Source: Haloarcula sp. DT43
GTDB taxonomy: Archaea; Halobacteriota; Halobacteria; Halobacteriales; Haloarculaceae
Direction of reading: 5' to 3'
DNA: 64,000 nucleotides
Assembly (NCBI RefSeq): GCF_037078405.1
Contig: NZ_JAYMGZ010000001.1
Location: 124,001-188,000, forward strand
Under the pieces are notes generated by a model. That model saw only the letters and a list, made by a program, of their open reading frames with translations. It was not told the DNA's origin and searched no databases. A program made the translations under genes and the position numbers. This document shows positions 20,724 through 21,642 of this stretch, in pieces (the first letter of the stretch is position 1; each line of letters starts with the position of its first letter).

Positions 20724-20732
20724 ACCGCCAGA
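20724..20732 (+). repeat. 9-bp direct repeat, left (putative target duplication)
   Basis: ACCGCCAGA immediately left of the inverted repeat that begins at 20733. The same nine bases occur immediately right of the opposite inverted repeat, at 21634-21642. Confidence 0.85.
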
Positions 20733-20748
20733 GAGGGTGTCATACAAC
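20733..20748 (+). repeat. Left terminal inverted repeat
   Basis: GAGGGTGTCATACAAC. Bases 20734-20748 are the exact reverse complement of 21618-21632. Confidence 0.85.
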
Positions 20749-20833
20749 GGCTCACATGGCCGTTCTTCGCTACCCGATTCGCTCAGTGCAACGAGCACAG
20801 GGATCACATCCGAAGTCAACCAGATACCGTCAC

Positions 20834-21226
20834 TCAACGATACTCTTCAACGTCTACGACGCGCTTGGTCTCTTCGTGCGTGAGATCACTGTCATCGGAG
20901 ACCACGGGTGCATCAAGTTCTCGGCCCACGGCGGCGATGAGACCGTCCATCCCGGCGAGGAACCGGCCTTGCGGTCCAACCTCGCTAGCGATTTCGCCGG
21001 CTATCTCAGCTGTTTCCTTGTCGGTCTCGTAAACCTCACCCCACGAAAGGTCAGCTGTTACCGCTGCGACATCGCCATCCGGGGCATTCCCCGCTCCGAC
21101 AAGGACCTCGGCGTACGCTGGGGCCGGGATAATGAACCGTTCATCGTCATGGGCCAGTAGATACGCAGCGGTGGCGTCGACACCGTTGAGATAGTCGATG
21201 AGAAATGTCGCGTCGAGGACTTTCAT
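20834..21226 (-). CDS. vapC: PIN-domain toxin VapC
   Basis: A 130-aa PIN-domain ribonuclease. The acidic active-site set is visible: Asp5 in MKVLDATFLIDYL, Glu40 in PAYAEVLVG, Asp94 in AGMDGLIAAVG, and Asp112/Asp114 in VVSDDSDL. VapC toxins cleave RNA (often tRNA) and are neutralised by the cognate VapB. The ATG overlaps the vapB stop by 4 nt. It lies inside the inverted-repeat unit and is less GC-rich than its neighbours. Confidence 0.92.
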   Translation of the reverse strand: MKVLDATFLIDYLNGVDATAAYLLAHDDERFIIPAPAYAEVLVGAGNAPDGDVAAVTADLSWGEVYETDKETAEIAGEIASEVGPQGRFLAGMDGLIAAVGRELDAPVVSDDSDLTHEETKRVVDVEEYR

Positions 21227-21462
21227 TCGTCGTCCGCCAGTCGACGCATCCGGTCTTTCGACTTCTGCTTGGACTTCTTACGTGCCTCTCGGGCCCGGTC
21301 AGCCTGTTCGTCTGCCCACCGGCCGAACCCAGCCATGAGGTCGCGGTCGTCCGCAAGCATCCGCTGCAACACATCGTTATAGCTCTCGCCCTCCCGGCGG
21401 CGGCGGTCAAGTTCTCGCTTCACCGTGTCGCTAACTCGAATCTGCTCATCCGCGGTCGCCAT
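21223..21462 (-). CDS. vapB: Antitoxin VapB
   Basis: A 79-aa antitoxin partner. The N-terminal ~35 residues (EQIRVSDTVKRELDRRRREGESYNDVLQRML) fit a ribbon-helix-helix type DNA-binding domain, and the strongly basic, helical C terminus (ARKKSKQKSKDRMRRL) would wrap the toxin. The position upstream of vapC with a 4-nt overlap is the standard antitoxin-first order, allowing autoregulation of the pair. The ATG at 21462 is chosen over an open upstream extension to 21555. Confidence 0.85.
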   Translation of the reverse strand: MATADEQIRVSDTVKRELDRRRREGESYNDVLQRMLADDRDLMAGFGRWADEQADRAREARKKSKQKSKDRMRRLADDE

Positions 21463-21617
21463 TGGTACGTTGACGTTCGCGTTGACAGAGATTAATACTT
21501 GTGGGGCAAACGATGGAATCTCGCCGGGAACAGCTGCTGTTACCTGAAAATTCAATACGCACTCCTACTGAGCGGTCGATTCAGACTACAGTATCTGAAA
21601 TCAACACCCTGTCAAAA

Positions 21618-21633
21618 GTTGTATGACACCCTG
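21618..21633 (-). repeat. Right terminal inverted repeat
   Basis: GTTGTATGACACCCTG on the plus strand; 21618-21632 pair perfectly with 20734-20748. Confidence 0.85.
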
Positions 21634-21642
21634 ACCGCCAGA
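21634..21642 (+). repeat. 9-bp direct repeat, right (putative target duplication)
   Basis: ACCGCCAGA, identical to 20724-20732, immediately outside the right inverted repeat. Confidence 0.85.

Follow-up and report, generated by a model that had tools for sequence, protein, structure and literature searches.

Mobile insertion cassettes (MICs) are units that, like the one described here, lack a transposase, are bounded by IS-type inverted repeats and a target duplication, and carry a passenger gene; their movement in trans is assumed. The unit that we analyzed lies at trm1 in a 64-kb stretch of the Haloarcula sp. DT43 genome (hereafter the window). Its terminal repeats are related to those of a known IS (they have ISH11-type tips), the 9-mer ACCGCCAGA is found twice around it and once in an empty site, and its passenger genes are present without a transposase. 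The MICs named in the papers that we found are bacterial, whereas the present family is archaeal and its many cargos are interchangeable. Its elements further differ in having inner junction blocks that are conserved, and one and the same cassette is found in unrelated end types.

Haloarchaeal MITEs, such as ISH2, which is mobilized by ISH8 (PMC10264941), and those of Haloquadratum (PMC3119063), likewise have no transposase, have IS-like terminal repeats and target duplications, and are related to an IS at their tips only. They are short and non-coding, save for ISH2 (one small ORF, a family of its own), whereas the elements described here contain full genes from many families; the trm1 unit, at 899 bp and with an intact operon, is neither short nor free of passenger genes. 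With ISH11, ISHma6, and ISNpe17 (IS5-like) the elements share the tip AGGGTGTCATAGAAC, and transposase-bearing hybrids use a cargo-type end. ISH11 copies are listed with 6-9 bp duplications (PMC10264941). The ends of the ISH11-type IS do not contain the inner blocks, and internal deletion of ISH11 does not account for the cargo elements.

Tn3-family TA transposons (PMC7157771) also hold a type II toxin-antitoxin (TA) pair inside a transposon. There, the TA pair abuts a resolution site and the transposon encodes its own transposase (PMC7157771), whereas the trm1 unit has no transposase, no Tn3-type transposase or resolvase is found beside its TA pair, and the TA is one among many cargos. In integron cassettes, single genes are exchanged at short conserved junctions; a similar exchange may take place here, and a tandem pair is found in one genome (G010), but the units described here are bounded by IS terminal repeats and target duplications; the unit and the transposase-bearing hybrids contain no integrase, and no attC was recognized by inspection. 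Cargo-bearing non-autonomous elements of haloarchaea were not found in the literature (open-licence papers), and this widespread family of one-gene mobile elements, present in dozens of genera, is apparently undescribed. Through it, an IS group that is common among haloarchaea is connected with a broad set of single-gene mobile elements, and it provides a concrete route for shuffling accessory genes (TA, acetyltransferase, MazG-like, tRNA-synthetase-like, and lipoprotein genes) at fixed chromosomal sites.

The vapBC unit at trm1

The unit is flanked by a histidine kinase gene on one side and trm1 on the other, and from the sequence it looks to stand upstream of a putative trm1 promoter. Its features, in window coordinates, are as follows.

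20724..20732, no strand: left target-site duplication ACCGCCAGA, from the sequence; present once in the G027 empty site
20734..20748, plus strand: left terminal inverted repeat AGGGTGTCATACAAC, common to ISH11-type IS ends (AGGGTGTCATAGAAC)
20734..20791, plus strand: conserved left end, 58 bp; 56/58 and 54/58 against the differently loaded elements of G003 and G031, chance level beyond
20783..20790, plus strand: left cassette junction motif TCAGTGCA (TCARTACAG in the family), where vapBC cassette homology to G010 begins
20834..21226, minus strand: vapC, PIN-domain toxin, 130 aa (Pfam PIN PF01850, E=1.3e-10; acidic PIN-type residues present)
21223..21462, minus strand: vapB antitoxin, 79 aa (Pfam VAPB_antitox PF02697, E=8.6e-14)
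21490..21498, minus strand: candidate TATA-like box GTATTAATC, 28-36 nt upstream of the vapB start, predicted from the sequence
21551..21561, plus strand: right cassette junction motif TTCAATACGCA; G010 cassette homology is perfect to here and then lost, and the motif bounds other cassettes too
21562..21632, minus strand: conserved right end (33-element alignment), containing the inner block and the subterminal repeat
21583-21571, minus strand: inner block TGAATCGACCGCT, within the conserved right end and present in a second terminal-repeat family too
21604..21611, plus strand: subterminal ACACCCTG, repeating the right tip 22 nt further in
21618..21632, minus strand: right terminal inverted repeat, from the sequence
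21634..21642, no strand: right target-site duplication ACCGCCAGA, from the sequence

Re-checking bore out the coordinates of the original prediction throughout. The left arm (AGGGTGTCATACAAC, 20734-20748) is the exact reverse complement of 21618-21632 (15/15), and one G separates each arm from its copy of ACCGCCAGA (20724-20732 and 21634-21642). Between the arms are only vapB and vapC, both intact and both with Pfam matches, and ACACCCTG occurs twice on the right with a spacing of 22 nt (21604-21611 and 21626-21633), as predicted; its inner copy is part of the right-end block that is conserved in the 33-element alignment of the family. When inverted repeats of 13 nt or more, bordered on the outside by direct repeats of 8 nt or more, were sought in the 64-kb window, the vapBC unit was the one structure returned; 30 equally long first-order Markov sequences returned zero.

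The two genes overlap by 4 nt and pair a PIN toxin with a VapB-type antitoxin, the composition of a type II VapBC operon. Judging from the TATA-like box, vapBC seems to have a promoter of its own within the cassette. Longer antisense or overlapping ORFs in the unit were rejected as mechanical entries of the ORF list. The unit is present as a single copy in its own genome. Homologs of vapBC are common and are also found elsewhere without the element ends, as in G027, in which a 94% identical vapBC without terminal repeats is located on a 100-kb plasmid and not at trm1.

A query made of the joined flanks matched the trm1 neighborhood in all 32 genomes of the genus. The single 9-mer that was expected to remain upon removal of the unit exists as a real empty site: in G027 the flanks are contiguous around a single ACCGCCAGA, as compared to the two around the unit in the window, and G005 has an empty site with a single ACCGCTAGA.

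A family of elements with ISH11-type tips

Matches to the ends are found in 65 of the 293 genomes of the order and in 38 of 87 genera, some of the matches being weak. About 40 elements, picked by their ends, were read in detail, so that counts among them are not a census. They have common ends with unrelated genes inside, including those for an alpha/beta hydrolase, GNAT acetyltransferases (one of which closely resembles ArsN1), a MazG-like and a SnoaL-like protein, a tryptophanyl/tyrosyl-tRNA-synthetase-like protein, DUF7344 proteins, and lipoprotein-like or membrane proteins. Perfect duplications surround a number of cargo elements (for example, L032, L033, L034, L039, L043, L044, L101, L142, L143, L157, L161, and L165); many of the sampled elements have no recognizable duplication, either as older copies or because of imperfect end calls. 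Same-ended elements thus occur at other sites with other target duplications; for the vapBC element itself, neither its own genome nor 60 relatives yielded a further copy elsewhere. Ends free of cargo were not found with a joined left-plus-right query (two candidates scored per genome).

Among individual elements, L165 (G227:C8) is 1.7 kb long, with a W/Y-class tRNA-synthetase-like gene as cargo and an 8-bp duplication. A 775-bp GNAT element is found with identical flanks in Haloarcula G028 (L039) and on a Halobacterium noricense plasmid (L274), reflecting either a shared plasmid or a contaminated assembly. Elements identical to L034 and L039 in other records were considered as recent transpositions and rejected: their flanks are identical too, so these are the same plasmid segments and not evidence for movement.

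The tip AGGGTGTCATASAAC is present in 18 of the 32 genus genomes, and a reversed control pattern in 0 of 32. In G016 it bounds 12 copies of a ~1067-bp unit, an ISH11-type IS, with 7-10 bp duplications. Each of the three copies inspected has a gene for a 330-aa DDE_Tnp_1 transposase, and two are flanked by 7-8 bp duplications. Proteins closely related to this transposase carry the annotations ISH11, ISHma6, and ISNpe17 (IS5-like). No ISH11-type transposase is found between the arms of the vapBC unit, which shares the tips alone with ISH11. Relatives that do encode a transposase and have the same kind of ends, which the original prediction had suggested seeking, are represented by the ISH11-type IS and by the hybrid L174 (G189). 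The latter joins a cargo-type left end (AGGGTGTCATACAACAGTTCACACACG...GAATCGGTCAGTACAG) to a 171-aa ORF, a transposase 83.5% identical to the ISH11-type one, and an IS-type right end, with CTTGGTT flanking both sides; at the level of sequence comparison, it is the strongest link of a transposase to a cargo end. L166 has an IS end on one side and a cargo-type end on the other, both enclosed by a 10-bp duplication, and L158 has 27 nt in common with the consensus left end.

In the genome to which the window belongs (G000), ISH11-like tips and 79% identical transposase fragments are seen only at several contig ends. Contigs C3 (at its end), C5 (at both ends), and C6 and C8 (at their starts) stop within sequence that bears the ISH11-like tips AGCGTGTCATAGAA, indicating that the assembly broke at IS repeats. 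An intact trans-acting ISH11-type transposase in this genome is likely but unproven, and we infer that such an enzyme mobilizes the vapBC copy at trm1. Hairpin MITEs of 147 bp with ISH11-type tips (L103, L104, L105, and L116) are found in several Haloarcula genomes; they were rejected as cargo-free forms because, despite the same tips, their interior is a different hairpin.

Replacement of cargo and the cassette junctions

The same trm1 insertion is found in Haloarcula sebkhae (G003), with a 188-aa membrane protein as cargo and one mismatch in the 9-bp duplication, and in Haloarcula argentinensis (G031), with a 226-aa ORF as cargo and the same 9-bp duplication. The left ends of the window's unit and these elements agree at 56/58 and 54/58 positions, respectively, whereas agreement over the following 80 bases is 22/80 and 27/80; the pair 56/58 (left end) and 22/80 (interior) is that of the window against L031. 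Comparable values are obtained for L033 against L034 (58/58, then 27/80) and for L039 against L043 (56/58, then 19/80); with ends that match at 56/58, the drop to chance level occurs at one base. By their neighboring genes, G027 and G019, which have no element, are closer to the window's genome than are G003 and G031, yet the left flank and left end are 97-98% identical between the window and G003/G031, compared with 86-91% for the neighboring genes. The segment was therefore probably passed between species, and interspecies recombination of the trm1 segment was probably also involved.

Different ends enclose recurring copies, 91-98% identical, of three cassettes (those of vapBC, DUF3592, and a membrane protein), and most breaks fall at the same short inner motifs, even across two unrelated terminal-repeat families. 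In G010, a 94% identical vapBC extends from TCAGTACAACGAG to AATTCAATACGCA, as in the window, with unrelated sequence outside; this cassette has an extra small ORF inside, and a second cassette directly follows it. The locus (L207, G010:C7, 6250-4090, minus strand) is a tandem two-cassette array in which the junction sequence is repeated and the outer ends are GGTCGTGATTATCGC, comprising vapBC with a small zinc-ribbon-like ORF and then a 201-aa membrane protein. The DUF3592 cassette of L157 (G193) is found at 92-98% identity in about 10-12 contexts. Its right break is at query positions 699-703 in eight of them, beyond which lie ISH11-type ends, GGCTCTGTTGAAATC-type ends, or other sequence; its left break is at 47-57 in four contexts and further in elsewhere (94-144 in several). 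In G260 this cassette is held by ISH11-type ends unlike those of G193 (left end, 33/58), and the site flanks are dissimilar. G021 contains the cassette of H. sebkhae at 97% identity, with TCARTRCA as one limit of the match and TCAATACGnACnCT / TCAATACG as the other. Overall, the right junction is fixed in three cassettes and the left junction is partly variable.

The second cargo family (L252-L267) is characterized by the tip GGCTCTGTTGAAATC and by 8-bp duplications that are perfect, and its partner is a 273-aa DDE transposase; in L267, a glutathione-S-transferase gene and the transposase are found together within 4 kb. The left motif TCGGTAAGTACAG and the right motif TGAATTACCCGCT, taken from the ISH11-type ends of the cargo elements, recur at fixed positions in this family, with p values of 0.0005-0.02 (left) and 0.0035-0.026 (right), each in 7 of 8 elements. 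Both inner blocks are absent from the ends of the ISH11-type IS and are thus probably not part of the core transposase site. They may be an inward promoter-like element (BRE/TATA-like), a recombination site, or an accessory binding site.

Proposed mechanism and alternatives

The presence of the same cassettes between different ends, breaking at the same inner motifs, points to an IS-mobilized non-autonomous cargo element with cargo exchange at fixed junctions, an explanation that as a whole we hold to be very probable. Both ends of the 0.9-kb transposon would be recognized in trans by an ISH11-type (IS5-like) transposase, and insertion of such units would yield the 8-9 bp target duplication. 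The elements would form a haloarchaeal group with conserved ends (~58 bp on the left, ~70-80 bp on the right) around one unrelated gene or operon, with vapBC and its apparent own promoter as the passenger at trm1. Cargo would be swapped between sets of ends at fixed points, on the left near TCARTACA and on the right just outside TACGCA, whether through recombination that acts at the inner motifs, through capture in the course of gap repair, or through a dedicated recombinase. The hybrids and the duplications lend indirect support to transposition in trans, which we extrapolate to the trm1 copy; the mechanism of exchange, too, we infer. With junctions located to within a few bases, this mechanism is directly testable in genetically tractable haloarchaea.

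The original prediction saw the TA pair as cargo of a ~0.9-kb non-autonomous element. This view is supported in part. The transposon-like unit stands, but the TA is not the point of the element, given that dozens of unrelated genes share its ends and that two species have other cargo at trm1; the suggested self-stabilizing mobile TA unit would thus be an effect of one cargo at best. That cargos behave like exchangeable cassettes, with junctions inside the ends, was not part of the prediction. To suppose instead an ordinary chromosomal vapBC near chance or regulatory repeats is scarcely credible: homologs are indeed common and present elsewhere without these ends, but such a locus would not account for an empty site with one 9-mer, for the recurrence of the ends at other places with different cargo and different duplications, or for the lack of comparable structures in the randomized windows; the empty site and the family of ends refute it. 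It is also improbable that VapBC is the reason why the element persists, acting as an addiction module that stabilizes the segment. The pair is intact and TA pairs are known to stabilize other mobile elements (PMC12548467), but most elements of the family contain other genes, so that the TA is unnecessary for the spread of the family. Resistance of the segment to loss may be a by-product at most and is unneeded to explain the element.

Two further alternatives concern how cargo is replaced. Haloarchaea recombine readily, and plain homologous recombination across shared ends and flanks, with no dedicated exchange at inner motifs, could account for the cargo differences at trm1; the excess identity of the left flank and end over the neighboring genes fits such a segment transfer. 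We lean against this alternative while taking it seriously, since one cassette occurs in unrelated terminal-repeat families that share short inner blocks only, its right breaks fall at a near-identical base, and the junction motifs are common to three different cassettes. In an integron-like alternative, a recombinase would cut and join at short TCARTAC motifs on both sides of the cargo and so load cassettes into the transposon ends. Direct TCARTAC-type repeats at both cargo edges, the fixed breakpoints, and the tandem array in G010 are all in its favor, yet we judge it unlikely: a recombinase gene linked to the elements was not found, nor were cassette-free ends among the two candidates scored per genome, and left breakpoints are sometimes off the motif. 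A broader form of the idea, a haloarchaeal gene-cassette economy in which genes bounded by TCARTACA (left) and TCARTACGCA (right), vapBC among them, would be moved between unrelated transposon ends by a dedicated recombination activity and then spread by IS, is speculative, and we regard it as rather unlikely. The preferred reading remains that of an IS-mobilized cargo element.

Two other loci were observed in the genome to which the window belongs. A left end resembling that of the tandem array in G010 is located at G000:C5:56427, and an element with GGCTCTG tips (L270, G000:C1:1226420-1227811) contains a transposase remnant and a 286-aa ORF within a perfect GAATAGCT duplication.
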